Origin: Sycon ciliatum
Taxonomy: Eukaryota > Porifera > Calcarea > Leucosolenida > Sycettidae
DNA length: 64,000 nt
Direction: 5' to 3'
Assembly (NCBI RefSeq): GCF_964019385.1
Contig: NC_088655.1
Coordinates: 19,245,296-19,309,295 of the forward strand
The position numbers and the translations under genes were made by a program. Shown piece by piece: positions 3,877-48,989 of this stretch. Every line of letters begins with the position of its first letter. Position 1 is the stretch's first letter. The notes below the pieces were generated by a model. That model saw only the letters and a program-made list of their open reading frames with translations, made no database searches and was not told the origin of the DNA.

Positions 3877-4216
3877 TGTTGCAAACCACCAGTTCTCAAT
3901 TGGGAAAGGCCTTCGCGCTTATGTCATTGTATTCGTCGCAATGTTGTCTTTCGACTCCGCCGTACCGCTGATGTTGCTGCATGGCATACGCTATATGCGC
4001 TGTGTGTGTTTTGCTGTATACGCTGTTATGTCCAGTTTTATATGCGTATGTTTTTGCATGTACGCTGTTTTGCATGCTATAAATAGCTGGTGTTATTAGT
4101 GTTCATTGTTAATTATTCGATGAAGTGAAATATACTGTCTAAAGGAAAAGTGTTGTCCTCGTGCTGTGTGGTCGTACGATCCTGACAATTTAGAGAATCT
4201 TAGAGGGTTCACAACA
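3877..4216 (+). repeat. LTR, subtype 2, left
   Basis: 340 bp, TGTTGCAAACCACCAG start and CAACA end, followed by TT and the primer-binding site at 4219-4236. It differs from the right LTR (9500-10041) at only a few positions once the 9651-9839 insert is removed, so the insertion is young. AATAAA is absent from the expected place, which has TATAAATAGC at about 4078. Confidence 0.88.
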
Positions 4217-4247
4217 TTTGGCGACCACGCCAGGATACGAAGCGAGC

Positions 4248-5303
4248 ATGGCAGAGGAACTATGGAACAATTTGGAAGCCAGCTTTATCGACAATGGAGA
4301 GCGATTAGGATTAGAAGGCGAGTTGTTGAAGGTACATGTGGAGCAGAGGCTCCAACAGTACGCGGAGCGTGAGGAGCGCAGTGCCAGACGGCGAGAGGAG
4401 GCACTCCGCACCGAGTTTGCCAAAACACTAAAGGAGATTAACGAGCGCATCGCCAATGCGCATGAGGGTGAGGGTAAAGCCGCGATGGGAGGTACAGAGG
4501 AATCTCCCAGTCACAGCGGTGGGCGTCAACCGTTGATGAAAATCCCCTCATATGATGGAACGCAGCCATTGGAGCGTTATCTTGACCTGTTCGAGGACAT
4601 CTGTTCCAAGAACGAGTTCGAAGAAAGCGAATGGTTGCTGCGACTGCGCATCGCGCTAGCGGGTAGCAAAGCGGAGAGGATATGTATTGGATGCAATAAT
4701 TACGAGGAAGCAAAACGAGAGTTGCTTGCCTCGCTCGGAAAGACTCCGGATAAAGCGTGGAAGACATTGCTGACAGGCAAGCAGCGGTCAGATGAGTCGT
4801 TTCATCAATACGTTGTCCGTGTTTGCCGAGAGGTAGAGGTGTGGGCCACACTCGCTATGACAGAAGATGGCGAGGTGGACACCAAGTATAGCGCCGATAT
4901 AGGAAAAATGTCCCCGGTGCTGCAAGCAATGGCAAAGCAGGTAATCTTGGAGCAATGCGGACCTGAGATGAAGACGTACCTGGTCGAACGGCAGTGCTAC
5001 GGGATGTCACTGCGCCAGGTACAGGAGCACGGCGCGTCTTACCAGGTCGCGCACGGACGACAGGGTGATACTGCCAGGAAGCCAGTAGAACGATCCGTGC
5101 CAAGGCCCACGGCGTCGGCACAGTGCATGGCGATATCGGTCGCAGATGCAGAGAAGCAGCTAAAGTCGCTGCCACAGGAAGGGAGAAAGGGTTTTCTGCA
5201 GCGAGAGAGACTCTGCTGGAACTGCCTTAAGTATGGCCATATGCCAGAGAATGTCGGTCAGGCGCGAGATGCACGAAATGCCAGAGGAAACACCACCTGC
5301 TAA
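4248..5303 (+). pseudogene. BEL/Pao gag, frameshifted at the zinc knuckle
   Basis: This is the capsid/nucleocapsid polyprotein of the retrotransposon. The ATG at 4248 follows the primer-binding site. The 351-residue frame has an N-terminal charged helical region, a capsid-like middle (the segment YDGTQPLERYLDLFEDI is typical of retroelement gag), and a first CCHC-type knuckle CWNCLKYGHMPE near residue 330. The frame then breaks: the second half of the knuckle region continues in another frame into the pol ORF. A one-base deletion near 5250 best explains this. In the source element gag and pol probably formed one polyprotein. Confidence 0.82.
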
Positions 5304-6460
5304 TACATGATGTGTTGGATAGAGCAGGTTACAGCCGGGAGAAACCGACTGAGATAGTAACGGAGAAGAATGTTGGATCGTGTTGTCTACACTCGCCAAG
5401 TGTGCGGCTGATGACCGGAGTGGCACGAGTTGAGGGAAGAACTCGAAACGCGAAGGTTCGCGTGTTCCTGGACTCGGGTGCTGAAGCGTCATTCGTGACT
5501 GCAGCGTTGGTGTCAGCAATCGATGCAGAACACGTTGGGGTTGAAAATGTAGAGGTGAAGCCGTTCGGCGCGGAACCAACCCAACAGCGCATGGATAAGT
5601 ACGCCATCACGATCCAGGGTAGCTCCGCTAGCATTCGGGTACGCGCGTTCGTGAAACCAACGCTAGAGCTGGACCTGAAGTGCGCAAGTCCGCAGACCAT
5701 TGCGCAGTGGCACAGTTGGGGAGTAGAGCTGAGTGACAAGCCTCAACAAGGGACATCAGACGAAATACATATGCTGATTGGTGCAGACTATATCAACGCG
5801 GTACTGCACAGCAAAAAGGAAGTTAATGGTGAGACGGTGTGGAACACAGAGATAGGTAATGTATTATCTGGTCCAGCGTCTGCACCAAGTCGTAACAGTC
5901 AGCCGGTGACCGTGTCATGTGTCACAGCCCACATCGACAAACTATGGCAGTTGGATGAACCTCCAGAACAACATCAGCACCTGCCATCTTTCCCGCTATG
6001 TCGCCAGGGCAGCGGGTACCAAGTGGGTCTCTTGTGGCGAAATGAGCGTCGCCCAACGGATAACTATGCTCAAGCTAGAGTCATCGCAACGCGGCTTCTT
6101 GAAAAGCTGGAGAGGAATGGGAAGCGTGCGCTCTATGATGATGTGCTGATCAGGGAGTACCGCGAGCTTGGAGCAATTGAGCTGGAGCCATGTGAGAGCG
6201 ATGCCGGGTACTATGTACCGCATCATGGTGTATTCCGCGAGCACGCTGCAACCACGAAGTTAAGAGTGGTGTTCAATGCCTCGGCGACGGCGCCAGATGG
6301 CAAGTCGTTGAACGACATGGTTGACCCTGGACCGTCGCTATTGCCGAGTCTCGCAGGTATGCTATTACGGTTCCGTGAATATAAGAGCGCGCTGCAAGCG
6401 GACATCCGCAAGGCTTTCTTCATGGTCGCGGTTAATCCCGAAGACCGTCCCGTCCGTACC
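5304..6460 (+). pseudogene. BEL/Pao pol, protease and N-terminal RT
   Basis: This segment carries an aspartic protease with the catalytic motif FLDSGAEASFV at about 5465-5497, then the start of the reverse transcriptase (VVFNASATAPDGKSLND and LQADIRKAFFMV, the region of the first catalytic aspartate). It is open in one frame from 5312 to 6505. The true reading frame is lost at about 6450-6460, where RT sequence continues in the next frame (first clear residues FLWPGRSDSDE). This is a second single-base frameshift, independent of the one in gag. Confidence 0.85.
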
Positions 6461-8238
6461 TGCGTTTCTTGTGGCCAGGTCGAAGCGACAGCGATGAACT
6501 GTTAACCTGGAGGCTAACGAAACTGCCATTTGGCGTAAACTGCTCGCCATACATGCTTACTGCGGTGATTCAGCATCACTTGAAGGAGCTACGGGCGTTG
6601 TCTGCACCCAAGGAGGGAGATCGTATTGATCTCTTGCTCACGAGTTTCTACGTTGACGATTTGGTCTCTAGTGTCTCAAATGCCTCGGAAGCTAAGGAGA
6701 TGCAAGAGTTCAGCGTGCGTGTGCTTACGGATGCTGGCATGGAGTTACGCAAGTGGCGAGGCAACGAAATCCCGTGCGATCTAGAGGCCGGAGATAAAGT
6801 TCTCGGTCTGAAATGGAAAACCAGTGATGACTTGCTCAGCATAGCAGCGCTAGGCGAGTCCGATAGGACGTCTGTTTGGACCCGGCGATCCCTCCTCAAG
6901 TGTGTTGCGTCAGTATTTGATCCGCTAGGTCTAGCAGCACCGGCAGTTGTGCCGGGAAAGATACTGCTACAGCAAGCCTGGAAAGTCGGAGGCGACTGGG
7001 ATGATAAGTTGCCTGATGGCATCGCAGCCGCATGCGCGCAATGGTGGGGAGAGTTGGCCGAAGTGGTGAGCATTGACATACCACGTTGGATTTGCTGCAA
7101 TCTTGACACGCCGATTGCGCTTCATGCCTTCGCCGATGCCAGTGAGAAAGCGTTTGGATGTTGTTTGTATGCAGTCGTCAATGAACAGTCGCACTTGGTA
7201 TTTGCCAAGGCCAAAGTGGTACCCGTGTCTCCACCCACGTTAGCCCGCCTTGAGTTACAAGCAGTATGTCTAGCGGCTCGCTACGCTGAGTTTGTGGTGA
7301 AGGAGCTGCGTGTGACCGTCACGCAAGTCTATGGCTGGACTGACAGTCTCACTACCCGTCATTGGATCAGTAATCCGTCGTACAAATGGAAAACATTTGT
7401 GGCTAACCGCGTCAGTCAAGTCCAAGAGATATCGAAGAAGGTCGGCATTGTGTGGAACCATTGCCCGGGCCTTCACAACCCAGCAGATTTACCGTCGCGT
7501 GGGAGTAGTGCACAGCAGATCCCTAGTCCGTTCTGGAGGGGCGGACCAACCTGGATCACGGAGCCCAATGACTGGCCCACCGCATCCTCAACCGCAGCTA
7601 CAGATGAGTCCAGTGTAGAAGTACGAGTGTCAGCCACCACCTGTAGTCGAGAATCTGATAAGGAATGGTGGCTCCGATTCAGTAAATGGTCGAGGGCACA
7701 GGGCATGGTGACTCGGATGTTGCAGTGGAAGCACACTGAGCCTCGTGCTGAACTCTATTTTGCAGCAGACAACGTATTGTACCGCATCGTTCAAGCCGCA
7801 TGTTTTGCTGAGGATCTTGAGCTGATCAAGCAAGGTCAACAAGTGAAGCCTGGGTCGAAGGTGTATCAGCTTGCATCGTTTCTGGATGAGCATGGAGTGC
7901 TCAGAGCCGGGGGACGACTTCAGCACAGCGAGTTGGCGTATGGAGCCAAGCACCCAGTCCTGTTAGGCAAACATCATCTGACCGAGTTGCTGTTGGAGAA
8001 AATGCATGTTGAAAGGATGCACCAAGGTGTAGAAGGAGTCTTGTCGTTCATCCGTCAGAAATTTTGGATTATCGGTGGTCGACGGGCGCTACGCAACATT
8101 ACTCAGCGATGTGTTACATGCCGCCGCTACAAGGCTAAGGCTGCCTCAGAAGTCTGCCCGCCGCTGCCGGAAGACCGAGTTGTTCACGAGAGGCCGTTCG
8201 CAACTACCGGCATCGACTATGCTGGTCCGTTGTACGTG
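6461..8238 (+). pseudogene. BEL/Pao pol, RT, RNase H and integrase N-terminus
   Basis: It continues the RT with LPFGVNCSPYM and the catalytic FYVDDLVSS at about 6646-6672. The RNase H domain begins HAFADASEKAFG (about 7123) and has a TDSLTTRHWI segment. The integrase N-terminal zinc-binding HHCC region follows (about 7972-8130, ending RCVTCRRYK), then the core start with the first catalytic aspartate in GIDYAGPLYVR. A LINE fragment at 8239 interrupts the core. The open frame runs to 8307 only by reading into that insert. Confidence 0.88.
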
Positions 8239-8524
8239 CGCCGTGGTTGGTTGTTGGTTGGTTTTTTATTTCACTTCGCACATTCAAACGGGATGACGAC
8301 CCAATAAAATGACGGCGAAGGCTTAGCCTAGAAGTGGCTATGGAAGAACATAGTAAAAGCTATGGAAGCACAAAGTAAGAGAATAGGATACTAATGACTG
8401 CGGGTAAACGGGGGGAGAGAGAGAATACGATGTATCTGTGATACTACGTGCGGGTTACTGAACTTCACGGGGAGGGAGAGCAGAGCAATCAGCAGCAACT
8501 CGAACTACTCCCTACAGGCGTATG
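8239..8524 (-). mobile_element. 5'-truncated LINE 3' end inside integrase
   Basis: This is the reverse complement of the 3' end of the LINE at 54061-54892, including its (AACC)n tail, which appears here as GGTTGGTTG near 8245. A 7-bp duplication, GTACGTG, flanks it (8232-8238 and 8525-8531). The high similarity to the 54-kb copy shows recent activity of the LINE family and dates this hit after the BEL insertion. Confidence 0.85.
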
Positions 8525-9406
8525 GTACGTGAGTCATCTCCGAAGGTATGGATAGCATTGTTTGTGTGTGCCACCACCAGAGCAGTTCACTTGGAGGTGG
8601 TCGATAGTTTAAGTACTGAGTCATTCTTGATAGCATTTCGGAAGTTTGTCGCGAGACGTAGTTTGCCGTCTCGGATCAGGTCTGACAACGCTACAACGTT
8701 CAAGGCGGCATCTGACAAACTGAGTGTGCCATGGATGTTCAATCCTCCAGCTGCACCATGGCATGGAGGCTTCTATGAGCGAATGGTTGGTACAGTGAAG
8801 AGTGCCTTGAAAAAGGTAATGGGAACAGCGTTTCTGAAGGTCCAGGAGCTTGAGACCCTCTTGTATGAGGTTGAAGCAGTGGTGAATAGTCGTCCGCTAA
8901 CTTATGTGTCTGATAGCCTGGATGAGCCACCAGTAACCCCTGCAATGATGATGGGTGACATCTGGATGTCGTCAGAGAAGCCAGCAGGCACCCTGGACGC
9001 TGCGCAGATGTCATCGAGATTGCGTTACCTCAGTCGGACACTGGAGCACGTCAAGAATCGTTGGGAGGTGGAGTACCTAAGTCAGCTGAACAAACACCAA
9101 CAGACCATGTCGCGCCCTTTAGCTGTGGGTGATGTTGTCTTTGTTATCGATGATACCAAGCGCAAACAGTTCTGGCGTTTGGGACGGATCATCGAGTTAT
9201 TCCCTGGTCGAGATGGTAAGCGTCGTGTTGCCAAGGTTAAGTTGAGTACCAGTACCCTGTTGAGGCCGATCCAAAGGTTAGTGCCGTTAGAAGTATCGTC
9301 ACAGGACGTGGCTCCTGGGCTTGCAGATACCGCTCAACCTGCTATCGTCCCTCAGCAGCCAGCGTATGAACCGTCAGCACCGTTACCACCACCACGGCAG
9401 CAGTAG
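8525..9406 (+). pseudogene. BEL/Pao integrase core and C-terminus
   Basis: Integrase resumes after the LINE insert. It shows WIALFVCATTRAVHLE, the second catalytic aspartate in IRSDNATTF (about 8676), and the glutamate in WHGGFYERMVG (about 8760-8792), completing the DDE triad begun at about 8217. A DUF5641-like C-terminal region follows (LAVGDVVFVIDD, RRVAKVKL), typical of BEL/Pao. The stop at 9404-9406 lies about 95 bp before the right LTR. Host transcription could give an open frame from 8522, but the protein is only part of integrase. Confidence 0.87.
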
Positions 9407-10105: not shown

Positions 10106-10705
10106 CGGCCGAAAAAGTGGGGCAGCCCCGGCTGTGACGGCCTTGGAAAAGGATTTGCCACTTGCGATCCTGGGACGAGTATCAGGTCAGCTTTGTCCTG
10201 TGTGGGCTGTATCAGATTGCTGTTCACTTCTCTATCTGTTGGATGTGTGACTTTCTGCAAGTTTCTGGGGTATGATGGCCTCTCCCTTGCTTGTCACTTT
10301 GTATGATATTACATTCTGTATTCGCTGCTTCCATGGCGTGGTCTGCAAACTGCAATCCTTGGGCAAATGTCATGTTTGCTATGTTGTGCTTTGGCCGTCA
10401 GCTTGTCTACACGCTGTAGTTGAATTATTTTTGTTTCACAACTGACTTCCTCAAGTACGGTGGCCACTGCTTTGCATGGCATTATATATGAAGAATTTCC
10501 TGTTTGTGTCTTGTGCATGTGCGTGGCCACGTGTGTGTGCCGTGTGCATACGCATGTTTGTGTATCTGTGTGCGGGGTAGCGCGGCGGGGAGGGCTGGTA
10601 TGTATCAGTGTGTTATTGCAGTCTCATGGCTACATACAGTACATCGCGTGCGCGTGGTCATTATGTTTACCTCCGGGGTTGGAGGGAACGGAAAAAGAAC
10701 TGAAA

Positions 10706-11147
10706 TTATCCATATAAAAACCGCTCTGTGAGCGGTTCTGAAAAACCTTTACTGGTACTGCCCCGTCGTAAAAGTAAGAAATTAGAACTGGCCCATTGTC
10801 CCCCCAAATGCGAACTGATCCACGTAAATCGCGAATGACGGGACCCGAACGCACCAGTAGCACGATGTTCCTACCTGTGGATGCAGATGGGGACGTTGGA
10901 CAACTTGGTCCGGACTATAGGCCATGTACTGTACTAGCGGTAGGTGGTGTTACCCTATGATAATTGCTGTCCTGTGCCCTCCCGACCTCGTGCTACTGGT
11001 GCGTTCGGGTCCCGTCATTCGCGATTTAGGTGGATCAGTTCGCATTTGGGGGGACAATGGGCCAGTTCTAATTTCTTACTTTTACGACGGGGCAGTACCA
11101 GTAAAGGTTTTTCAGAACCGCTCACAGAGCGATTTTTATATGGATAA
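10706..11147. mobile_element. Foldback element, about 157-bp arms
   Basis: Left arm 10706-10865 and right arm about 10988-11147 are inverted copies, with a spacer of about 120 bp. The tips read TTATCCATATAAAAA. The sequence just inside each tip (CCGCTC...GAGCGG on the left) can itself form a hairpin. No coding sequence. No clear target duplication. Confidence 0.75.
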
Positions 11148-11170
11148 TGTACATGTATAGTGTACACAAT

Positions 11171-11216
11171 CTGCGGACAGCATGCTGTTTCGTTCTTTTT
11201 GAACTCATCAGCGCAG
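11171..11216 (-). ncRNA. Hammerhead ribozyme, array unit 1
   Basis: On the minus strand: stem I CTGCG; core CTGATGA; stem II GTTC-AAAAA-GAAC; core GAAA; stem III CAG-CATG-CTG; TC; stem I partner CGCAG. All conserved core bases are present, stem I has 5 pairs and stem II 4 pairs. Predicted cleavage follows GTC, between 11176 and 11175. The short stem III (3 pairs) is typical of retrotransposon hammerheads, which often work best as dimers. Confidence 0.92.
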
Positions 11217-11398
11217 CACAGAGGAAATGAGGCCGAACCTGATAGCAATGGAAATAAAAATTTCCAATCAGGCCCGAACGTACCTTGCCAGAGTGCTCAA
11301 ACTGACAAGTCAGTGAGCTCTGCATAACGCAAACAGCAAAGGCACTACCCCACGCAAGAGTGCTCAACTGCTACAAGAGCAGGAGCGAAATACTCAAT

Positions 11399-11444
11399 CT
11401 GCGGACAGCATGCTGTTTCGTTCTTTTTGAACTCATCAGCGCAG
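11399..11444 (-). ncRNA. Hammerhead ribozyme, array unit 2
   Basis: Identical to the unit 1 ribozyme, 228 bp further along. Predicted cleavage between 11404 and 11403. Confidence 0.92.
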
Positions 11445-11626
11445 CACAGAGGAAATGAGGCCGAACCTGATAGCAATGGAAATAAAAATTTCCAATCAGG
11501 CCCGAACGTACCTTGCCAGAGTGCTCAAACTGACAAGTCAGTGAGCTCTGCATAACGCAAACAGCAAAGGCACTACCCCACGCAAGAGTGCTCAACTGCT
11601 ACAAGAGCAGGAGCGAAATACTCAAT

Positions 11627-11672
11627 CTGCGGACAGCATGCTGTTTCGTTCTTTTTGAACTCATCAGCGCAG
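11627..11672 (-). ncRNA. Hammerhead ribozyme, array unit 3
   Basis: Identical to the unit 1 ribozyme. Predicted cleavage between 11632 and 11631. Cleavage here and at units 2 and 4 would release exact 228-nt monomers. Confidence 0.92.
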
Positions 11673-11854
11673 CACAGAGGAAATGAGGCCGAACCTGATA
11701 GCAATGGAAATAAAAATTTCCAATCAGGCCCGAACGTACCTTGCCAGAGTGCTCAAACTGACAAGTCAGTGAGCTCTGCATAACGCAAACAGCAAAGGCA
11801 CTACCCCACGCAAGAGTGCTCAACTGCTACAAGAGCAGGAGCGAAATACTCAAT

Positions 11855-11900
11855 CTGCGGACAGCATGCTGTTTCGTTCTTTTTGAACTCATCAGCGCAG
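11855..11900 (-). ncRNA. Hammerhead ribozyme, array unit 4
   Basis: Identical to the unit 1 ribozyme and the first to be transcribed on the minus strand. Predicted cleavage between 11860 and 11859. Confidence 0.92.
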
Positions 11901-12067
11901 CACAGAGGAAATGAGGCCGAACCTGATAGCAATGGAAATAAAAATTTCCAATCAGGCCCGAACGTACCTTGCCAGAGTGCTCAAACTGACAAGTCAGTGA
12001 GCTCTGCATAACGCAAGCAGCAAAGGCACTACCCCACGCAAGAGTGCTCATGTATAGTGTACATGTA

Positions 12068-14345
12068 AATGCACGGGACACCAAAATAATAATGCAGTCA
12101 ACCTCGTCAAAAACGACCTCCGCAGTAGGACCAACTCAGGCATAGCTAGATAGTTTTGTGACGTACATGTACATATAGGGGCCAATTGACTAAAGAAATG
12201 CTCGACCTGAAGAAAAACGAATCCTCAAAAACGATCGTAACTGTTCTCATCCAGGATCAAGTTTTGAGGGATTGTTATTGAGCAAAGTGTACTGCAAGTA
12301 TACCTGTGCATACATACATAGCCCAGCTTCGGAAGGTGGCGTATGATAAATGCCGATGGAATTCATTGCGAAACAGCACTGTTAATTAGCCTGGCCATAA
12401 TAATACGATTACATCTGACATGCTTACCTGCCTACTTGTGCGCACGCATGCATTCTTGCCGGAGATGTCTACCTGTGGCGACAATAATTTTTTCATGGAC
12501 TGATCTTCTTTTTTAGTGTTTGCACACTCTTGGCTGCTGCTGTGGCGCTTTTGTATTTACATGCTGCTACGCTCTGTACGGCTGCACTAGCCGTGTTAAC
12601 TGTCGTACCCAGATGCACACATTCAATCCCTGGCTATGCTTTGGAATTGTTTTCGTTGCCTATGTCCTCATCTCTCTTCGTTTTGTTTTCGCTGCCTGGG
12701 CTCTCATTTATCTTTGCGTGCTTGCTTGCTTGTATTGCTGAGGGAACATATGCTGGTTTGTATTCGTGGGTCCCCATGGTGCATGGGCCACGCGTACTCA
12801 TCCGGCGGATATGTGTGAATAATAATAATAATACATACATGTACAAGGGCAGCATCAGTACGCACGGCTTGAGCATACACCAAGGCAGTTGAGTGTTTGA
12901 ACCAGGGAGTAGTAATTTTACTACATGAGCCCCGGCCAGCGAAAACCAGCACTTGTGTACTTGATATCAATCATCAAAATGTGACGTCAAAGTTTGGGAC
13001 GCGCAGTGAGCTGGCTTTTGAAGATTCTTTTCGATCGAGTGGGTGTCTTTGTTGTCAAAGGAGTTTCAAGTGTCTTCAAATGTCTCTGGTCAATTGATTT
13101 TAGCGCTAGGTGAGAGCTCGTCACACGGAGGTTGAGTTTAGACACAGCGATGGCGACAGGTGTCGCGACAAAGACTTAGGTCCAGAGTTGTCAGCGTGAG
13201 ACTCCCTGTACGAAGCGGCGCTGAAAGTTAGTTCGCGATCGGAATTATTTCTTTGTTGGCGATCTCGCTGAGTTTGTCCAGCAGTGGCGAGTGTCATATG
13301 CATAGCAACGAAGAGCCCTCATAAAATCGACACTGGATACTGGTGGCGACGATAGTCAGTGCTGAAGAAATAGCGACTGCGAGGAGAAGCTGAATTTCGA
13401 CCCGCTGAGCGATCCGTATTTCTACATCGACAACAATGATGTTGCAGACACTGGTGGAGGGCTTCTCACGGCGCAAAACAGAGCGTAGTATTCTCAGTAC
13501 TCTACCTTGCCAGACGACATCAAGCTGGCTGCTGCCTGTGTTGAGAAAGGGGATCCCTAAAAACTCAAACCGGCTGAACGCTTTGGGGCAACATGTTCAC
13601 GTGCTACAAAACGCCAGCATTCGCTCATATCATTGAAATACAATTATGCTGAAATCATGGTCTGAGTGAAAGTGTGCAAGGGAGTGGATGTCAGTAGTAT
13701 TGATCAGTACATCTATCAGTATGGCAAGCTTTGGGACAACGCCCAAACTGCCAGCGCAGAGGTCCCTGAACACAATTTGGAAGGCCAGCCACCAATCATC
13801 GTTTTGCACTCTGGTGTTGTAAAGAAGGTAGTGATGTATACGGAATATCGTCACTGTGACTTCTGAACTACTCATGCCTGCACAGGCTGCAGCACCAAGA
13901 GGGCAAGCCTGACTTGCATTCTATTTACTTACATGTACCTGTTCCACATCACAATCAGAAACTGTAGGATCAACTTGCATGGAGTCACTAGGCATGGATG
14001 CTGCGCCAACTGTACCGAATCTTGACCTCTCTGACTTCAAACTCTATTTTCCATGCTTTCGCTTATCAGATTGTTACCAAACTTGATAACTTGAATGATT
14101 AATAGTGTAGAAACAATTTCGAGGGAAAAAATAATTTTTGAAAAAATTACACATGTTCAGGTTTCTGCTGGCTGGGGCTCACATTTATTTGACTACTCCC
14201 TGCAATGGACTCAAAACGGGTTTATTCAAAACATACGACATCGAAAGAAGGAAGAAAACCAAAGATACAAGGGATGAAACTCGACGATGAAATCAAAATG
14301 AAAATTTGAAAAAAGCCTTATCCAAAGAAACTCAAGGCAAATATG
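12068..14345 (+). repeat. Dispersed repeat R1, copy 1, broken by insertions
   Basis: Pieces at 12068-12318, 12836-12922 and 14185-14345 are collinear with intact copies at 30321-30836 and 39412-39912 (landmarks GACACCAAAA, GGGCAGCATCAGTACGC, CTCAAAACGGG). The gaps hold other DNA: about 520 bp at 12319-12835, with no gene I can support, and the transposon at 12927-14180. R1 lies downstream of type A gene copies at both 14-15 kb and 40 kb, so it belongs to the duplicated block. Confidence 0.75.
12927..14180. mobile_element. DNA transposon with 4-bp target duplication
   Basis: Inverted ends GAGCCCCGGCCAGCGAAAACC (left) and its near-complement GGTTTCTGCTGGCTGGGGCTC (right) are flanked by ACAT at 12923-12926 and 14181-14184. 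The intact R1 copy at about 39730 has the empty site with one ACAT. The 1254-bp interior has no recognisable transposase. A 4-bp duplication is compatible with several superfamilies, so I leave the class open. Confidence 0.75.
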
Positions 14346-15405: not shown

Positions 15406-17710
15406 CACGGCTGATTCAGACTGCAAAAACCCGTGCACAGCATCTCGGGTTCGAGGCCAGGCCAGCAGTCACCGAAGTAGGGGATTTTCCCGTACTCAAG
15501 CGTACTCAAGGGCTGAGAATTTTCTCAGGGCCAGCTCTCTACACGCGGCTTCTCGGCCTCACCGAGCGGAGCCTGAGACACTGAAAACAACAAAAATAGC
15601 CTCGTGTGAGAGTACAGTAGCTGTAGCACAATCGCGTGTAAAAAACGAGTGCTTCTTTCTTCGAGCGAGCGACTTTTCAAGCGTTTCTTGTCGATTTCTT
15701 ACTCCTTTTTGAGCGTGTCTTTTGCTGTACGTAGCCCAGGGAAACTGCCCTGGGTAGCTAGTTGGGGAAGTTTTGGTGGCGGCGAGGGAAGTTTATTTGT
15801 ATAGCGGAAACCTTCATCTACAAAATACGTTAGTGTCATTGTGATCTGTAGGGTAGTTTTGTGTGCATGGTGTTCTTTCTGACGTCTCTTATGGCTGAAC
15901 AATGAGCTCTGATTTCAAAAATTTGAATTTTCACCTTGAGCATGTGGGTATGTTGTGTCGCTTGGGTGGATGTAAACTGCCCAGCCATCGGAGTGGTCGG
16001 AAGTCTTGGAGCCCTCTATTAATTTTATCTAGTGAAAGATTATGCATTGCAGATCTTCAATGTTCTAGGTATCAAGGTAGAAAAAGATGAAAGTGGTGTC
16101 CACCCCACACATTTCTGTAGGGCATGCTTACTATTTATCCAGAAGTCAGCAGAAAGTGAAACACCGTGTGATGTTGGTGGTGATATTAAGGGAGGGGATA
16201 GTGGTGGTGGTGGCTGTAGTAAGGCTCTGCCAAATGTACTAGCCTGGATGCCGCACACAGATGATAAATGCATTGTATGTGGGTGGATTGAGAGTGCAAG
16301 AAAGGGAGGTAGACCAAAGCAGGAGAAGAATCTTAAGGGGGCGTGCTCGGTGGATAACAAGAGCCAAAACACCGGGGAGAGTTTGTTGGGTGTCGATATT
16401 GACGAAGCCACGCTGTTCGGGCGAGCCACGCCTTCGCATGTATGTACTCTTGGAGAGGAAGGAGGTGAATTAATACACCACAAATTCAACCTCCTTCGCT
16501 CTGGCCTGCAGAACACAAACAAAGATGTTGACCGTCTAAAGGTCTTGGTCGTGCAGTACCTAACAACCACACTGCCGACACACCAGTGCTTAATTTATAA
16601 TGCACAACAATTGCAGTATTAAAGCCAAGGGAAAATTCCCAAATCTAGCTACCTATGGAGAAGTAAACTGTTTTGTCGCTCACAACATCAGCGCGGGTGG
16701 TGGCGGGCCATAGGTAGGTCAACATTATCACTCTGATACATTCAGAAATCATTTGAACAGCAAAACTGTAACTAATTACTTCAAACATGAGACAAAAGTC
16801 AAAATACAATGCAGCGATGCAATTTGAAATCAAAACTGTTCTGCACCACTGAAATCGAATTTACTACTTCTTATACTGCACCTTCTTTACTGCTGATGTT
16901 CAGCCACTGTGCAGATCCTGCTGTGCAGATCCTGCTGTGCAGATCCTGCTGTGCTAGCCTTGTGATCTCATATCAGAATCCAGCCAGAATAGTACAGCAG
17001 CTGCATGGGAGCATGCCTGTCCCAGGCCCGCCATGCAGATGCAGTGTGCCAACAGAACAGCACCAGAAAGGGGGGGGGGGGACTTGTCAAAATACTCAAG
17101 CGAGTGTCCATGAAAATTCTTTGCTTCCTCCTGCCAGGTTGAAAATCACGTGCACTGATTCAGCCACCAGGTGGCATGCGTCAACACATCTACGGGTAGC
17201 CCTGAATCCTGAACTAAACTCTAAAGGAACGTACAGTTCAGGTGCTGAGCACGTGCAGGAACTACACAACGTTCCTCGTCCACAGGCAAGTAGAGGACAA
17301 TGCACTGTGACATGATCCGTAATACTAGAACTTGAACTACTATAATTATTGTAGAAGTAATAACAATAGTTCCTGCACGAAAATGATGTTGTGTCGAAGA
17401 ACGGCATAAACCGAAGAGTCACTGGGTCTGGCAGATGTCGCCTTCATCTTTTATCGAAACTCCACGTCAAGACAGCGAACACTACACTTCAAAACCACTT
17501 GACTTGGCCTACAACGAGACGAACTCCAAACAACTCGACAATGTTTTTTTTTGTAGCTCTGTAGCTCTTTTGGCACCAAGCAAAAAAATATTTCCTTGCA
17601 CTGCGTGTAATCTCTGGGTGGGCACCGCCAAGGCGTTAAAAAGGTGGGTTTTTACCAAAAATGTGTAAAAGGACGCCATCTTGCCTTTTGAATCACGCGA
17701 AACAGCCGTG
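15406..17710 (+). mobile_element. Transposon with a RAG1 N-terminal-like ORF
   Basis: The ends are inverted: CACGGCTGATTC at 15406 and, reading inward from 17710, CACGGCTGTTTC. Comparison with the uninterrupted paralogue (41210-41235) gives a 3-bp duplication, CCA. CAC...GTG termini with a 3-bp duplication suggest a CACTA/EnSpm-type (CMC) element, but the ORF inside resembles the N-terminal zinc-binding region of RAG1. No DDE core is present, so this is a deleted, non-autonomous copy. The interior also contains three tandem 16-bp units at about 16911-16960 and a G11 run at about 17071. Confidence 0.82.
15902..16622 (+). pseudogene. RAG1 N-terminal-domain-like protein, degraded
   Basis: The frame from about 16032 reads IFNVLGIKVEKDESG, then HPTHFCRACLLFIQKS, and 40 residues later WMPHTDDKCIVCGWIESARKGGRPK. 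In vertebrate RAG1 the N-terminal region has the same order: a HPTEFCHNCW-type box, then a W.PHT..C.IC box, then a basic stretch. The upstream frame from 15902 reads HLEHVGMLCRLGGCKL, like the LCR(I/L)CG box that precedes these in RAG1. It is in a different frame, and the second cysteine of the expected CxxC is glycine. A frameshift between about 16005 and 16032 (frame 0 has a stop at 16020) and the missing start codon make this a pseudogene. RAG1-NTD proteins without the RAG1 core are known in invertebrate transposons (for example N-RAG-TP of molluscs). Residues after about 130 are not recognised. Confidence 0.75.
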
Positions 17711-18438
17711 CCAGGCTGGGGTGCAGAGCGACCGACTCCTTCTTGTAGGCCTTCGTCTTGGCCGCGATTACGTCTTCTCGCAGCTCCCCACCCGGCGTTC
17801 TCGTGCGAACCAGGGTGCAGAAAGGCGCCACTTGCGGCTGAAAGATCACGTCAATGACGGAATCGGAGGCCTGTCGCTCTTCCTGGGTGAATCGGCCATT
17901 GGTGACGAAGATGATCTGGTTGATCCCACCGCTGCACGTGTGTGCCAAATGCGCAAGCTCCAGTAGCACCTGCTCCTCGGTGAAGCGGTTGTCGCAGAAT
18001 CCGATGGTGTCGATGATCTTCACTGCGTAGTCGCGACCGGCGTATGGCACGAGGACGGTCTTAGTAGGCAAGCCCTCGGTCTTACTGGTCGGAGAACTTG
18101 ACTCCGGGAACAAGTCACCTTTGTATCGACCGGCAATGACGTTTGCCAAAGTGGACTTGCCCTTGCCAGTCCGACCCATTAGGACAATCGTGCGATCAAT
18201 CTTCTTTCCATCTGGACACGGTCTGTAGTCGTCGAAATTGTCCATCACAACCTTGCGTCAACCGAGTCAACTGAATACTAGTACCCGGGTGTCTGACGTA
18301 CGCTAGAGCAGTGAATGGTTCCACTAAAGACTTACTCGACTGAGATCCAATAGTTCACAAGTTAGTCACTCTAGCCTAGGCAGCTGTAAATTGCTCTGAA
18401 ATTTGTTCTGAAGTACTAGTAGCCGTTGAAATTGTGTG

Positions 18439-24794: not shown

Positions 24795-25709
24795 TCACAA
24801 GATGATGCAGTCGTCATCACCCTGCGACTCTGCTGCCTTTTGTTGGAGCTCCGCATTGGCACGCCTCATCTCCCGGACTTGTCTTTGCTGCTCCCGACGA
24901 AGTCTCGCCTGCTCCGCTTCTCTGGCCTTTAGCTCCGCTTGGAGGCGTTTCCGCTCCGCTTCCTGGCGCTTCTGCTTCTCCTGCTGGGCAGTTTGTGCGT
25001 CCAGGTGTTTGTTAACCCTTGCCACAGCACTGGTGTAACTTGGAGTCGCATAGCACTGCATGTAATGCAGTATCACGTGATCGAGAAGAGTCTTGTGAGA
25101 GCGTCGGCGCATCTGCATGCTGCGTTCGTCACCATCGTCCGGGTTGCTGATCATGAGAAAGGTACCGATCTGGGCGAGATTCGGATGCAGCCTGATCATC
25201 TCCTGGCGATACTCGGCAGTCTTAGCAGCTACCACAGCTTTGTCCAGTTCTTTGGCCGGTGTTGCTGTGCGAACGATAGTAGAGAACTTGGCCACGTTGG
25301 GCTGAAAGATTACGTTCATCATCGCATCCATGGTGGTTTTGTCCTCCTGAGTGAATCGACCACGTGTGACAAAGAGAATCTGATTGATTCCCCCGGTGCA
25401 CGTCTGAGCCACCTTAGCCAGTGCGTGTAGGACATCCCTTTCGGAAAGAGATGTGTCCCCGTAGCCGATGGTGTCCACAATCTTGATGGCATGGTCTTTG
25501 CCAGCGTACGACACTAGGACGGTGTGCGTCGGCAAACCACGTGTTTGGCTCGCGGGGCTGCTGGATTCCGGAAAGAGGCCGCCGCTATACTTTCCCGCCA
25601 GTACGTTTGCCACGGCAGACTTTCCGTTACCTGTTTTTCCCATCACGACGATTGTCCGATCTGGTTTGCGACCAGCGGGACAGCGTCGGTAGTCACTTGC
25701 ACTGGCCAT
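24795..25709 (-). CDS. Type B AIG1/GIMAP GTPase, CaaX CIIL
   Basis: A 304-residue GTPase of the AIG1 family, probably acting on intracellular membranes in defence or survival signalling; that role is known for plant AIG1 and vertebrate GIMAPs and inferred here. P-loop GKTGNGKS lies at residues 24-31, DTIG (G3) at about 79-82, and the AIG1 box GGINQILFVTRGRFTQED at about 106-123. The G4 position reads TIVRTATPAKE with no NKxD-type aspartate. Residues 225-295 are a charged coiled coil. The C-terminus is DDDCIIL, a CaaX box with leucine, which predicts geranylgeranylation. It lacks the basic patch of its relatives, so anchoring strength may differ. The ATG at 25709 is the first in frame. It is transcribed opposite to the next type B gene, 2.7 kb away. 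Confidence 0.9.
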   Translation of the reverse strand: MASASDYRRCPAGRKPDRTIVVMGKTGNGKSAVANVLAGKYSGGLFPESSSPASQTRGLPTHTVLVSYAGKDHAIKIVDTIGYGDTSLSERDVLHALAKVAQTCTGGINQILFVTRGRFTQEDKTTMDAMMNVIFQPNVAKFSTIVRTATPAKELDKAVVAAKTAEYRQEMIRLHPNLAQIGTFLMISNPDDGDERSMQMRRRSHKTLLDHVILHYMQCYATPSYTSAVARVNKHLDAQTAQQEKQKRQEAERKRLQAELKAREAEQARLRREQQRQVREMRRANAELQQKAAESQGDDDCIIL

Positions 25710-25960
25710 GCTGAGGCTGTAGACGCAATGAAGGCAGTGAATTGCAGCTGAATAGAGCAGTTGTCGAAACCCACTATTCCTCTATGCACTAGTCTTGGTT
25801 GAGCTTAACTTAACATACAGGCTAACTCCAGAAATATACCGGTTACCTTCTGTTGGCACTAAGCACACACAAAATGGATTGTCGAGGAGGCAAGAACTAT
25901 TTTTTCCAAACCTGGAAGAAGTAACCTTGGCATGGTGCGAGAGAGGGCTCGAGGTAACGT

Positions 25961-26441: not shown

Positions 26442-26822
26442 TTGATCACTTCCAAGAATCGCGCTCACGAGTCGCGTGCGAAATGTGCTACCCGGAGTAC
26501 AAGTGACGGCTCATTCTTTGTTGCCGCGGGACTTAGCTTGTGCACATTTTCGCTGCGCTCACCTTCCCCTCTTCGGTCCTACGTAACCATGAAACTTCCA
26601 AGTTGGAAGGCTGTTGGTTTGCGTACTGGAGATGTGTTAGAGCTAGGTCTCGGGTCGCTGAATGTCTCAGTACTAGTAGCCTGTCAGTTTTGTGCCCTAT
26701 TATCGCACTTTCTGACCGTTTATCATCTCGTTACAGTCGTGGATAGTTGCTGCATAACTCGTTCTCATGTGCTTCTTCTCTTTTTTACAGACACTAGTAT
26801 TGTGCCGTATCATCATCAATAA
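26442..26822 (+). repeat. Repeat related to 48.5-49.2 kb
   Basis: It shares long stretches with 48650-48890 and, inverted, with 48990-49220 (TTCCAAGTTGGAAGGCTG, GAATGTCTCAGTACT, GCACTTTCTGAC). At 48 kb this family carries a hammerhead; here that part is missing. The open frame is not a gene. Confidence 0.6.
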
Positions 26823-28105: not shown

Positions 28106-28374
28106 AGCCAGAGAAAATAGTGTGCTACCTCAGTGCAAAGATATCTTCTCCAGACGAACGCTTGCATACGTTTCTCTGGTTCCAGTCCACTAGCGAGACG
28201 TGAACGTTCCAGCAGAATTTCTATAATACTTCTAGCTAAGCGTAGCCAATGTGGGTGAGTGAAATCAAGAAGCTATCAGAGAGGGGAATTTCACTGTATA
28301 ACTACAGCAACCTAGTGTGTCATTAGTGTCTGTCACTGAACGACGTGGTCTGTAGTGTAGACTGATTAAACAGT

Positions 28375-30320: not shown

Positions 30321-30836
30321 AGATGCAAGGGACACCAAAACAATAACGCAGTCAACCTCGTCAAAAACGACCTTCGGAGTAGGACCTACTCGGGAATAGC
30401 TACATGTAGATAGTATTGTGACATACATGTACATGTACATGTAGGGACCAATTGACTAAAAAAATGCTCGACCTAAAGAAAAACGAATCCTCAAAAACGA
30501 CCGTAACTGTTCTCATCCAGGATGGAGATTTGAGGGATTGTTATTCAGCAAAGTGTACTGCAAGTGCCTGTACATACATACAAGGGCAGCATCAGTACGC
30601 ACAGCTTGAGCATACACCAAGGCAGTTGAGTGTTTGAACCAGGAAGTAGTAATATTACTACATTTATTTGACTACTCCCTGCATGGGACTCAAAACGGGT
30701 TTATTCAAACAATACGACATGGAAAAAAAGGAAGAAAACCAAAGATACAAGGGATGAAACTCGACGATGAGATCAAAATGAAAATTTGAAAAAAGCCTAA
30801 TCCAAAGAAACTCAAGGCAAATGTAACAAGGTTGTG
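30321..30836 (+). repeat. Dispersed repeat R1, copy 2
   Basis: An uninterrupted copy, about 90% like 39412-39912. It abuts the broken type B gene at about 30838-30852, so the R1 insertion or a recombination at its end removed the 5' part of that gene. Confidence 0.75.
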
Positions 30837-30851
30837 TAAAAGAATCAACAT

Positions 30852-36280: not shown

Positions 36281-36402
36281 CTGACTACTTTGTCGCAAAT
36301 CGCATGATGTAATACTAGTATGGCGAAACACATGACGCTGGCGAGCATGTGAGCACAGGCATGCATGAACTACTATACACTATTGAGTACTTACCTAGTA
36401 CG

Positions 36403-37014
36403 AAGTAGTGGTTGCGACTTCGGCGATGATTTGTAAGAAAGGGTTTGCTCCCCACACCGGAGCTCGCGCTATTCCGCCGACTTTACTTGACACTTGACTG
36501 ACTCACGACTGCCATCCAGAGCACACGAGAAGTTCATCGAACCGTCGACTCGGCAAACCTGCAAGAAAGCACCACTCCCTGCTCAATACACAGTGTTTCG
36601 GGGAATTCACCCCTCATCAGTTGAGCTTGAGTAGGCTGAGGAGGATTGTGCCTGAAGAGCACCACTTATATAGTGCTCTCCAGGCACAAACATCACCAGG
36701 GATACAAACTTACAGAGACGCTCCATTTCCAGCGCGACAAACACCTCGTGAACACCAGGTAGCAGCATGAGTCAGTGTCGCTCCTGGACGGTGAGACGGT
36801 GAGACCAGACGTTGAGGACCCTCAGTCGTTCGCAACGCTGTCACCTCCAAACCAACTAGTCGCAAGCCCGCGCTGGGCACAACAGTACGAAGTAGTGGTT
36901 GCGACTTCGGCGATGATTTGTAAGAAAGGGTTTGCTCGTGAGTCAGTCAAGTGTCAAGTAAAGTCGGCGGAATAGCGCGAGCTCCGGTGTGGGGAGCAAA
37001 CCCTTTCTTACTTA
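36403..37014. repeat. Hammerhead-bearing Penelope/retrozyme-like repeat
   Basis: A 50-bp segment, GTAGTGGTTGCGACTTCGGC onward, is present in direct orientation at 36409 and 36891. A segment with GCTCGCGCTATTCCGCCGAC is inverted between about 36459-36507 and 36938-36992. A hammerhead lies between them on the minus strand. Mixed direct and inverted terminal repeats with a ribozyme fit a Penelope-type terminal-repeat arrangement. The segment is absent from the paralogous flank at 28 kb. Confidence 0.65.
36581..36626 (-). ncRNA. Hammerhead ribozyme
   Basis: On the minus strand: stem I GCTCAA; CTGATGA; stem II GGGG-TGAATT-CCCC; GAAA; stem III CA-CTG-TG; TA; stem I partner TTGAGC. Stem I has 6 of 6 pairs and stem II 4 of 4, and the core is complete. 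Cleavage would follow GTA, between 36587 and 36586. The 2-bp stem III suggests dimeric action. Confidence 0.88.
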
Positions 37015-37355
37015 CCTAGTAGCAGTAGTACCTGCTTACTGCCGTATACTTTTGAATGCATGAGTCGCGCGCGCCTCGACTGGCATAAATAAGCCAGAGA
37101 AAATATTGTGCTACCTCAGTGCAAAGATCTCTTCTCCAAACGAACGCTTGCATACGTTTCTCTGGTTCCAGTCCACTAGCGAGACGTGAACGTTCCAGCA
37201 GAATTTCTATAATACTTCTAGCTAAGCGTAGCCATTGTGGTTGATCGAAAGTCAAGAAGCTATCAGAGAGGGAAATTTTTACTGTTACCTAGTGTGTCAT
37301 TAGTGACTGTCACTGAACGACGTGGTCTGTAGTGTAGACTGTGTATTTAAACAGG

Positions 37356-45073: not shown

Positions 45074-45118
45074 ATATTGCTGACGCGGACCAAGTAGTAG
45101 ATTGATATTGACAATGAC

Positions 45119-45162
45119 CCTCGAGACAGCTGTTTCGCTCCTCCTGAGCTCATCAGTGGAGG
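45119..45162 (-). ncRNA. Hammerhead ribozyme, one stem I mismatch
   Basis: On the minus strand: CCTCCA; CTGATGA; GCTC-AGGAG-GAGC; GAAA; CAGCTG; TC; TCGAGG. All core bases are present. Stem I has one C-C mismatch next to the cleavage-proximal pair; the copy at 46942-46985 has the matching base. Predicted cut between 45125 and 45124. Confidence 0.8.
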
Positions 45163-46239
45163 CATATGATGTTGAATGAAAGAATAATAAGAATAGACTG
45201 ATCTTTATACGGCTAAATTGGCGCAATTGCGCTCATTCTGCATAGAAACGTGGCACACCCTAAGTGACAAAAGTGACAAAAGTGATAACAAGGTCAGGTG
45301 ATAACGACACGCGCTCTTGGCTGGGACAGGAACATGTGGCACGTGTGAAAAGGTGGGGGGGGGGGGCAAAAAATCAGCAGCCAGTCTAACACCAGAAAAG
45401 TAACATGACTGTAGTTATTGCATGTGCCACAAAAAACAAAAACAAAGATACTTCGGCTGACTGTACTTGTCCCATAGTGACGTGACGGGGAACGAACGAC
45501 GAAATGAACTGGCCGACGCGGCAGACACAGAGGCCCCTGAGGCAATCACTGTCCTGCCAGCCCGTCGCACACAGCCACACCACGCCGCCAAACCCGTTGA
45601 ACACGTACACTGATGTTGGCTGCGCCTTCAGTCAGCATCTTCCGCCGCAAAATAGCCTCTTGCCACACAGAGAGGCCCGTGGGGCATTCACTCCAGTCAG
45701 GGCTGTGCTGTGTCCGATGCTGCTAAATTTTGATCTAGCATTTGATGTTGAGGAACTATCCCGCTTGTCTCGTAATTTCAGTGTCGCTTTACGGCGCATT
45801 TGAAGTTGAGAAGAAGTACCGACGACCCGGCCATTATGGAATCCAATACACCACACCACCATAATTATTGCGCTCTTGGCCGATCCGAACTCTGCACTCA
45901 CATCACCATCACCACAGCTAGGACAATTCCGGTATATACTAGTAGATTGATATTGACAAAGACCCTCCTATTCTTATTATTCTTTCATTCAACATCATAT
46001 GCAAGACACCGCCCATGATGCGCTGTGAACCTTGTCACGCCCATTTCTGTGCTCTCTCGAAAGCGTCCAAGTATTCAAAATAGGTCACTTTTTTATCTGG
46101 TCACCAATGGTCAATCCTTCGCTCAGTTACGTTTTCGGTTTTCAACAGGGTTCTTTTTCCCGCAGACCTATCTGTAACCTATTCAGTTACCATCGGTGAC
46201 TTCTTTCACTTGTGATTTTTTTCTCCTCCCCTCCCCATT

Positions 46240-46826
46240 CGGGAGAATAAAGTTGAAGACACCACTGCAGCTGTACTTATGGTTGATAAATATGGTGGTA
46301 AAGACACACCTGGCAATATGGCGGTAAACACACGCCTGCCCACACAAGCTCTCTAGGCTGCAAAGTTCTGGCACAGAGCTCTCCTTCTCACCACCACCAC
46401 CATCAGTTGGCGCCTGGCGCCTGGTCGATGCATGGCTGGCGGTATCCGGCATAGCAGGCTGGTACATCAAGTAGCGCATGGCACATAGATGATGACACAG
46501 CAACGACATAGCTCGATTGCGACGTACGTTTCGTCCCCGTTAATTAACGCGTTGGACTCATCAGGCAATCTTCTTCTTGGATGTCTTCATACGGAGCTTG
46601 ACTCGGGAGAATAAAGTTGAAGACACCACTGCAGCTGTACTTATGGTTGATAAATATGGTGGTAAAGACACACCTGGCAATATGGCGGTAAACACACGCC
46701 TGCCCACACACGCTCTCTAGGCTGCAAACTTTGCAGCCTAGAGAGCGTGTGTGGGAGAGCGTGTGTGGGCAGGCGTGTGTTTACCGCCATATTGCCAGGT
46801 GTGTCTTTACCACCATATTTATCAAC
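46240..46826. repeat. Direct and inverted copies of one unit
   Basis: The unit beginning GGGAGAATAAAGTTGAAGAC occurs at 46240 and 46606 (offset 366), and its inner part recurs inverted at 46730-46826, making a perfect hairpin about TTTGCAGCC near 46732. One hammerhead lies between the direct copies. Confidence 0.75.
46515..46570 (-). ncRNA. Hammerhead ribozyme
   Basis: On the minus strand: stem I GATTGC; CTGATGA; stem II GTCC, a 17-nt loop, GGAC; GAAA; stem III CGTACG (self-complementary, 1-2 pairs); TC; stem I partner GCAATC. Six of six stem I pairs and a full core. The cut would follow GTC, between 46521 and 46520. The long AT-rich stem II loop (TTAATTAA) could make tertiary contacts with stem I. 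Confidence 0.87.
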
Positions 46827-46941
46827 CCTCCCCATTACTATTATTATTATTATTAAATTTGTCATGTCGCTCGCATGTATAAAAGAAGGCGCCATCGCAT
46901 GTTTGTGCTGCGACTTTAAATAAAACTCAACAACAACAATG

Positions 46942-46985
46942 CCTCCACTGATGAGCTCAGGAGGAGCGAAACAGCTGTCTGGAGG
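46942..46985 (+). ncRNA. Hammerhead ribozyme
   Basis: Plus strand: stem I CCTCCA; CTGATGA; stem II GCTC-AGGAG-GAGC; GAAA; stem III CAGCTG; TC; stem I partner TGGAGG. All pairs are perfect and the core is complete. The cut would fall between 46979 and 46980. It is the same family as 45119-45162, in the opposite orientation. Confidence 0.9.
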
Positions 46986-48151
46986 GTCATTGTCAATATC
47001 AATCTATATGCCGGAATTGTCCTCGCTTTGGTGATGGTGATGTGAGTGCAGATTTTGGATCGGCCAAGAGCGCAATAATTATGGTGGTGTGGTGTATTGG
47101 ATTCCATAATGGCCGGGTCGTCGCTACTTCTTCTCAACTGTGTTGCATTGTAAAAAACAAATAATTATAGTAAAGTACAGTGCGTCAAGCAGCAAACGTG
47201 AGCATTGTCATTACATGTATCAGCTGCCTGAGTGAGGATTCATTACATGTATCAGCTGCCTGAGTGAGGATTGCCTTCGCCCTGCCAGGCAGAGGGACAG
47301 CTACAGACTTGGAGGCTGAGGCTCAGTAGTCACTATCACTAGCCGTGCTGACACTAGGCACCTACGGATAATGCTGGCAGAAAAATTGGCAGAATTCGGT
47401 ACTTTTCTGGTAAGTTTCATGCATGTTTGGTGTGTGGATAAAGAAATGGAGCAGAATTCGAGGAATTGCCCGCCATAAGGTTTGTATGGTTCTGCCAATT
47501 TCACTGCTTTTCGAGCAGAATCTGCCAGTGCCTAACTGACACTGTGGACCACGATGAATATTATGTATCTAATATTGACTGAGTACGAGGTCAATATAGG
47601 AAATAAAAGCCGAGTAAAAGACCGAGGCGAAGCCGAGGTCTTTTACGAGGTATTTTATTTCCTATACTGACCAAGTACGAAGTTAATATTAGATTGATCA
47701 CGACTAACCAAAGCATGTGCGCAATCGCTAAAAAGGAGTCAAATATAAGCGGTCAGTATAGCCCTAAGGAGTGAAATATGTAGGAATATTTGACTGCTTA
47801 GGTAAGGCAAAAATCTATGGGAGTCAATACTAAGAGAGTGATAAACATGTACATGTATATGGAAAGGGCACACGCTCGATTCCACACATTTCGACTCCTA
47901 GTCCTAGTTTTGACCATGGACGATGTACGAGTACATGAACTTGCACCGTCAGTCAGTGTTCGGCTAATGCAACTGTTGCACATCACTTTTGATCCGAAAA
48001 GGCCTCTTCTACGGGCAGAGCGAAGCACAAACATCACCATGTACTGTATGATCATCACAGTGAATACTCAGAATAGTTAAACCCGACACGAATGAAAAAT
48101 AAAGAATAGAATAATATTTTTTGGAAAAAGATCACACACAAATAGAATAAA

Positions 48152-48960
48152 AAAGTTGGAAGGCTGTCGGTTAGCGCTACGGAGATGTGTTGAAGCTAGG
48201 TGTCAGGACGTCGAATGTCTCAGTACTCTGTCAGTTTTGTGCCTAGTTATTGCACTTTCTGACTGTATATAGTATCCAGTTACAGTGATGGAGAGTTACT
48301 CTTGACTCGTTTCCATAATGTCCTTTTCTTTTCTACATTTATTTATGGCTCAACATCCGAGTTTCAAATTGCACACCTGATGAGCCGTCACGAACCATAC
48401 GGCGAAACGTACGTCGTGGGAAACAACTTGTTTTGTAGTCGACTAGTCCATCACAATGTCATGCATGAGGAGTGCTGTAGGAGTTTGGCTTTCGGCTTGT
48501 ACAATTTGTTTTCGCAAAGCTTCCCCTTTCTGTGCTTATCTTTGACATTTATGACCCACCCAAGTTGGGTGGTGTGCTGCTTTGCTGCTTCGAATTGTAG
48601 TAAGACCGCTTTGTCAAATATCGTACTGGTCTCGTCATCGTCCAGTAACAATCGACATTCTTTGTTCCGTTGGGACTGTAGCTTTTGCTCGTTTTCGTTG
48701 CGCTTGCCTTCCCCTCTTTGGTCTTTTCATAACCTTGAACCTTCCAAGTTGGAAGGCTGTCGGTTAGCGCTACGGAGATGTGTTGAAGCTAGGTGTCAGG
48801 ACGTCGAATGTCTCAGTACTCTGTCAGTTGTGTGCCTAGTTATTGCACTTTCTGACTGTATAATATCCAGTTACAGTGATGGAGAGTTACTCTTAATTAA
48901 CTCGTATCCATAGTCCTTTTCTTTTCTACATTTATTTATGGCTCAACATCCGAGTTACGA
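48152..48960 (+). repeat. Tandem terminal-repeat-like duplication, period about 590 bp
   Basis: A segment of about 218 bp (GTTGGAAGGCTGTCGGTTAG at 48155 to CAACATCCGAGTT at 48365) recurs at 48745-48956. The unit between them contains a hammerhead. One and a third units in tandem with a ribozyme is what a hammerhead retroelement integrated from a concatemer or as paired terminal repeats would leave. The open frame 48302-48913 is a by-product. Confidence 0.72.
48374..48418 (+). ncRNA. Hammerhead ribozyme, short stem I
   Basis: Plus strand: CAC; CTGATGA; stem II GCCGT, an 10-nt loop, ACGGC; GAAA; CGTACG; TC; GTG. Stem II has five pairs and the core is complete. Stem I has three pairs, then an A-G mismatch. 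Predicted cut between 48415 and 48416. It shares GAAACGTACGTCG with the ribozyme at 46515-46570, so the two families are related. Confidence 0.8.
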
Positions 48961-48989
48961 ATAGAATAAAACATTATTATGTAAACACA

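Follow-up and report, generated by a model that had tools for sequence, protein, structure and literature searches.

A tandem hammerhead array in the calcareous sponge Sycon ciliatum, very probably a recent retrozyme insertion

Introduction

In a 64-kb stretch of the genome of the calcareous sponge Sycon ciliatum (the window, meaning the whole stretch of DNA that was analysed), a hammerhead ribozyme sequence recurs head to tail at intervals of 228 bp. The locus raises two questions: what kind of element such an array represents, and which machinery could have put it where it stands. Animal retrozymes are mobile elements that are thought to spread through circular RNA. The class has already been described in print (Cervera & de la Pena 2020), where both the enzyme that mobilises animal retrozymes and the use of the circle as its template are proposals only. 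No pairing of retrozymes with Porifera or Sycon was found in open-licence PMC papers, taken without their supplements, and the word Porifera is absent from the main text of the retrozyme papers of Cervera et al. from 2016 and 2020; a supplementary table may list a sponge.

The array, here called insertion A, very probably records a single recent integration of a metazoan non-LTR retrozyme, copied from self-cleaving RNA by a borrowed reverse transcriptase that is most likely Penelope-like. Read in this way, the array extends retrozymes to Porifera, a phylum that branches among the deepest of the animals, and supplies at least one insertion that is young and clean-edged. Three features lift the locus above the routine: (i) the phylum of the host, (ii) a total of four hammerhead insertions within 64 kb whose edges can be recognised, (iii) the Penelope-type inverted 5′ piece carried by two of them. 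Because edges and inverted 5′ pieces have been kept, a genome-wide edge map in Sycon ciliatum could test the questions of the enzyme and the circle.

Table 1. Positions, strands and supporting evidence of the features in the window
Feature	Position	Strand	Basis or detail
Left target-site duplication copy of A, CATGTATAGTGTACA	11152..11166	.	exact 15-bp match
Insertion A, tandem retrozyme array	11167..12048	− (ribozyme strand)	period-228 identity and Tandem Repeats Finder
Hammerhead 1 (inner 5 bp of stem I to partners)	11171..11216	−	cleavage 3′ of N17 at 11176
Hammerhead 2	11399..11444	−	N17 at 11404
Hammerhead 3	11627..11672	−	N17 at 11632
Hammerhead 4	11855..11900	−	N17 at 11860
Right target-site duplication copy of A, CATGTATAGTGTACA	12049..12063	.	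exact 15-bp match
Insertion B	36401..37008	−	54-bp direct repeat, spacing 487
Duplication of B, TACTTACCTAGTA	36388–36400 / 37009–37021		13 bp
Inverted 5′ piece of B	36936–37011		exact reverse complement of 36433–36508
Insertion C	46240..46825	−	129-bp direct repeat, spacing 364
Duplication of C, CCCTCCCCATT	46229–46239 / 46826–46836		11 bp
Inverted 5′ piece of C	46755–46827		exact reverse complement of 46645–46717
Insertion E	48153..48959	+	217-bp direct repeat, spacing 593
Duplication of E, AATAGAATAAAA	48141–48152 / 48960–48971		12 bp
D1, minimal hammerhead (stem III 2 bp)	46931..47006	+	core at 46948; sequence repeated at D2
D2, sister copy of D1	45098..45174	−	core at 45132; 96% alike over 77 nt
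AIG1/GIMAP-like frames	17652–18257, 24795–25781, 40772–41767	−	list of frames
AIG1/GIMAP-like frames	28366–29307, 30790–31494, 37338–38288, 51962–52864, 56506–57459, 60112–61089		list of frames

Tandem anatomy of the array

Insertion A is 882 bp long and consists of 3.87 head-to-tail units of 228 bp. When each base is compared with the base 228 further on, a single mismatch is found in 654 comparisons (11789 versus 12017); this sole difference between units is private to one of them, the pattern that repeated copying of a single template would give. The period-228 identity begins at 11167, and Tandem Repeats Finder calls the array at 11163–12050 (99%). An earlier note on this DNA had described four near-identical units: the near-identity stands, but the fourth unit reaches only ∼198–200 of its 228 bp. 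No second copy of the 228-bp family lies elsewhere in the window.

The unit has a GC content of 48.2%, and its longest stop-free run is 75 aa. A coding circle was considered, 228 being divisible by three, and is rejected, as no frame stays open all the way round a 228-nt circle. No frame of at least 130 aa overlaps the array, and the ORF for a telomerase-like RT and a GIY-YIG nuclease that marks Penelope-like elements is absent from it.

The hammerhead in each unit

A complete type I hammerhead, with core and stems intact by the full descriptor, is found in 4/4 units, all of which have the DNA pattern CTGATGAG...CGAAA...GTC. The RNA reads CUGCG-CUGAUGA-GUUC-AAAAA-GAAC-GAA-ACAG-CAUG-CUGU-C^CGCAG and, as judged by its sequence, would fold into a stem I of 5 bp, a stem II of 4 bp and a stem III of 3 bp with an A-U closing pair (4 bp in all), with the palindromic CATG (CAUG in RNA) as a loop. 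The core, stem lengths and GTC given in the earlier note thus hold for every unit, with one correction: the ribozyme strand is the minus strand. On the plus strand of the array, neither Rfam nor the full descriptor gives a hammerhead match.

The covariance check that had been proposed for the unit names a family but leaves the score low. The best Rfam family is HH9 (RF02275); three units score 28.8 bits and the fourth 26.1, all under its curated gathering score of 52. The corresponding E-values of 9.7e-5 and 7.1e-4 from a search of 1.4 kb become 0.0044 and 0.032 when the search covers the whole window. The exact core of the hammerhead has 0 matches in viral contigs and 0 in bacterial/archaeal contigs, collections that say little on an animal element.

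Folded as a 228-nt circle, the unit is predicted to reach −73.6 kcal/mol with 68% of its bases paired, against a mean of −63.4 kcal/mol and 64% paired in 200 dinucleotide shuffles (z −2.1, with 4/200 at or below the value of the unit). By this measure the predicted fold is moderately unusual only; the other polarity has a z of −1.9. The hammerhead fits within much the same circle fold at −68.5 kcal/mol, so that forcing it costs ∼5 kcal/mol relative to the MFE.

Edges of the array and the target-site duplication

The array is flanked by a target-site duplication, absent from the earlier note, which adjoins the insert directly on both sides. Its length is best given as 13–15 bp, because the next two bases of the array itself at the right edge are also CA. 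A second common string of 10 bp exists at the edges (11148/12058). The inverted-repeat search of the region lists no terminal inverted repeat for the insertion, and the array contains no inverted 5′ piece. Read along the ribozyme strand, the insert runs 9 nt beyond the last unit's cleavage site and stops there; the 3′ end of the RNA is at 11167 and the 5′ end near 12048–12050. Without the insert, the target reads ...GGATAATGTACATGTATAGTGTACATGTAAATG..., and a duplication of 13 bp would put the cut at ACA^TGTA on either strand. There are 55 occurrences of TACATGTA in the window, and the resemblance of the cut sites carries no weight.

Duplications were judged against a matched control of 2000 edge pairs for each insertion, taken elsewhere in the window with equal search widths and equal separation; start points at 11000–12200 were excluded, and the real edges of B, C and E were included along with other repeats. 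For A, 0/2000 pairs reach even 10 bp. Controls at or above the observed length number 0 for A, 0 for B, 14 for C and 6 for E, so that the duplications of A and B are firm, while those of C and E are good, though singly not beyond chance. An earlier control with random junction pairs and 3 bp of slack, in which 1/7932 reached at least 10 bp (that one 16 bp), was too kind because the edges of B, C and E came from wider searches.

A fold-back DNA element lies at 10705–11148, with 164-nt inverted ends that are 98% complementary; it ends 3 bp to the left of the duplication.

Other hammerhead loci in the window

The core pattern CTGATGAG N3-30 CGAAAC has 9 matches in the window, and the largest count in 100 shuffles is 0; the looser CTGANGAG N3-30 GAAA has 12, where 100 shuffles average 1.03 and never exceed 4. 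The full type I descriptor, which was composed after the array had been seen, recognises 8 hammerheads in the window; 100 shuffles yield none. Beyond the array, the core pattern occurs at five loci, which the full descriptor and Rfam back in part; three of them are insertions of other families (B, C and E; Table 1). Matches to microRNA families and one to a hepadnavirus signal were discounted, being far below gathering and placed at simple repeats and at the palindrome of C.

The hammerhead of B has its CTGA at 36620 and N17 at 36587 (GUA). That of C, at 46515–46570, scores 36.6 against a gathering score of 34 and is the only hammerhead in the window above Rfam gathering; the junction at the inverted piece of C is a near-palindrome with 37-nt arms, 92% complementary, around a one-base centre. 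In E, CTGA is at 48377 and N17 at 48415, and a second common string of 11 bp exists at the edges (48104/48959). With a stem I of just 3 bp and repeat copies that match at 93.7%, insertion E looks older. Sequences related to unit E lie at 26512–26789 and 48979–49224 (−), with 77–79% and 65–69% identity; neither the core pattern nor the full descriptor recognises a hammerhead in them, and they may therefore represent older copies of this family.

The two remaining loci, D1 and D2, are of one type. D2 has the core pattern but fails the full descriptor. No duplication was detected for this type: the longest common string at the edges tried for D (45780–45830 versus 47120–47170) is 6 bp. By eye, D-type loci have TATA-like boxes upstream, at ∼55–60 nt, and an ATG immediately ahead of stem I. 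This layout recalls the Penelope-like element of Anolis, in which the ORF begins within the hammerhead. The stretch 45804–46002 may be a D copy that lacks the hammerhead and has its 5′ part inverted. A short fold-back element at 44649–45102, with inverted ends of ∼29 nt, seems to interrupt the D2 element, and sequence related to it is found in the opposite direction at 47503–47844.

Two further ideas on the nature of the units were rejected. Loose A-box/B-box pairs of an internal Pol III promoter number 0 in A, C and E and two in B, where 142/300 mononucleotide shuffles also had one. For a tRNA-derived unit, ARAGORN (bacterial code) reports no tRNA in the window.

Neighbouring genes and elements

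The window houses a cluster of AIG1/GIMAP-like GTPases with at least nine frames, which by eye form two sequence groups; two frames were scanned by Pfam and both are AIG1. A BEL/Pao-type retrotransposon occupies 5231–9406 in several frames, with Pfam matches to Peptidase_A17, Integrase_H2C2 and DUF5641 above the cut-off and to RVT_1 and rve below it; 4194–5303 may be its upstream part. The frame 16023–16622 has a Pfam match to the RAG1 importin-binding family (30.3 bits, cut-off 23.3).

A proposed route of insertion

Each insert is longer than a single repeat spacing: A has 3.87, B 1.25, C 1.61 and E 1.36 (1.10 for B and 1.35 for C without their inverted pieces). The RNA 3′ end falls within the unit in every case, at a distance past the cleavage site of 9 nt in A, 186 nt in B, 281 nt in C and 544 nt in E, and with such distances a common 3′ end relative to the ribozyme is rejected. 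Since the 3′ end is internal in 4/4 inserts, the template cannot have been a self-cleaved linear monomer that was read from its cut end; either a circle or an uncut multimer is needed.

For insertion A, it is proposed that the transcribed RNA would self-cleave to 228-nt monomers that could be joined into circles, much as the earlier note had suggested, and that a host ligase would probably do the joining. An autonomous element, most likely a Penelope-like one, would lend the reverse transcriptase, which would nick the plus strand of the target and begin to copy within the circle at a point 9 nt beyond the cleavage junction; it would round the circle almost four times and then stop (or would copy along a multimer). 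A cut of the second strand ∼13 bp away would leave the duplication.

Target-primed copying by a Penelope-like enzyme is the most likely driver of A, with a LINE as a serious rival. It is rather unlikely that the same element was driven by a LINE-type reverse transcriptase, or copied from an uncut multimeric transcript and not a circle, or both. Duplications of 15 bp are termed LINE-like in excerpts of PMC4918200, and L1 twin priming also yields 5′ inversions, according to part of PMC2837659. Three frames in the window (49917–50696, 54049–54636 and 57881–58444) resemble the ends of LINE reverse transcriptases by eye; none has a Pfam match, and the first has 17 homologues, two of which carry RVT_1. 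A Penelope reverse transcriptase was not identified among the 9 of 47 listed open frames that were scanned against Pfam. Set against a LINE is the fact that A, B and C lack a 3′ poly(A) tail (at E a tail would be masked by the A-rich duplication), together with the partial tandem and head-to-head inverted piece, a layout that excerpts of PMC3846280 describe for Penelope, and the type I hammerheads that portions of PMC7761336 report in Penelope elements and retrozymes. Evidence on the template comes from a purified Penelope-like enzyme (Anolis PAc, with a hammerhead), which starts reverse transcription inside the template RNA; it inserts RNA with dead hammerheads too, ribozyme mutants being inserted normally (PMC11167929). 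Cleavage by the ribozyme is not needed by this enzyme, so that circles are not required and uncut RNA can serve as template.

Ordinary satellite DNA with a chance hammerhead, amplified by unequal crossing over, would also give head-to-tail units of high identity, but this origin is very improbable in view of the exact 13–15 bp repeat on both edges, the fractional insert, the absence of any variant common to several units and the similar layout of three other hammerhead insertions nearby. Less probable still is that a viroid-like or satellite RNA was endogenised, or that the assembly contains a concatemer of circular RNA. A hammerhead RNA of 228 nt is within the size range of small viroid-like RNAs, but ribozymes on both polarities, as in the viroid family Avsunviroidae, would be expected of such an RNA, and the array has them on the minus strand only; the insertion has a flanking duplication, further hammerhead families share the window, and a protein encoded in the window maps to a contig of 28.4 Mb.

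The retrozyme reading with a Penelope-like driver can be extended, tentatively and as a possibility that we would not yet call probable, to a series of hammerhead elements of differing unit size (228, 364, 487 and 593 bp) in calcareous sponges. These might grade from true retrozymes to Penelope-type repeats and share a single Penelope-like machinery of target-primed integration, which would begin within a circular RNA and run round it. If so, the shared layout of more than one unit, an internal 3′ end, a duplication of 11–15 bp and, in 2/4, a head-to-head inverted 5′ piece would be the genomic footprint of rolling-circle target-primed reverse transcription on ribozyme-made circles.

Comparison with known systems

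Penelope elements of Adineta vaga (Pen2a), as described in portions of PMC3846280, have a partial tandem, a head-to-head inverted 5′ copy, palindromic junctions and duplications of 8–10 bp. Insertions B and C resemble them in the partial tandem, the head-to-head inverted 5′ piece and a duplication of ∼10 bp, which for C is of a length matched by 14/2000 controls; C also has a palindromic junction. Self-priming on an antisense template is the explanation given there for the inverted copies of Penelope; it forms no part of the route proposed above and is at odds with plain copying of the ribozyme strand in B and C. Insertion A has a tandem and a duplication; it differs from Penelope-like elements in having no inverted piece, no RT/GIY-YIG frame and a stem III of 4 bp.

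The LTR retrozymes of plants, according to excerpts of PMC4918200, are non-autonomous retroelements with circular RNA, and like the array they bear hammerheads. The plant elements have LTRs, 4-bp duplications (PMC4918200) and type III hammerheads, whereas the array has a duplication of 13–15 bp and type I hammerheads.

Metazoan non-LTR retrozymes are characterised, in the relevant passages of PMC7229834 and PMC4918200, by tandem units of 150–450 bp with type I hammerheads, a GC content below 50%, no LTR signals and duplications of more than 4 bp. Such elements range from dimers to multimers, lack an LTR, a primer-binding site and a polypurine tract, have many copies dispersed over the genome and are expressed as self-cleaving RNA in linear and circular form. 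With unit lengths inferred from a partial second copy only, the spacing of C (364) is within this range and those of B (487) and E (593) are above it; the GC contents of B (54%) and C (51%) are above the published <50%. The array agrees with the class in its 228-bp units, the type I hammerhead in every one, a GC content of 48%, a flanking duplication of 13–15 bp and the lack of coding capacity, with no endless frame, all of which supports the earlier description of a retrozyme-like element. Nearest in form, by unit size and duplication length, are the cnidarian non-LTR retrozymes: passages of PMC4918200 give units of 220–240 bp for Acropora millepora and duplications of 15 bp for Nematostella vectensis, and over the published accounts the Acropora units span 220–245 bp. 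The likeness is one of features, not of sequences, and the host here is a calcareous sponge.
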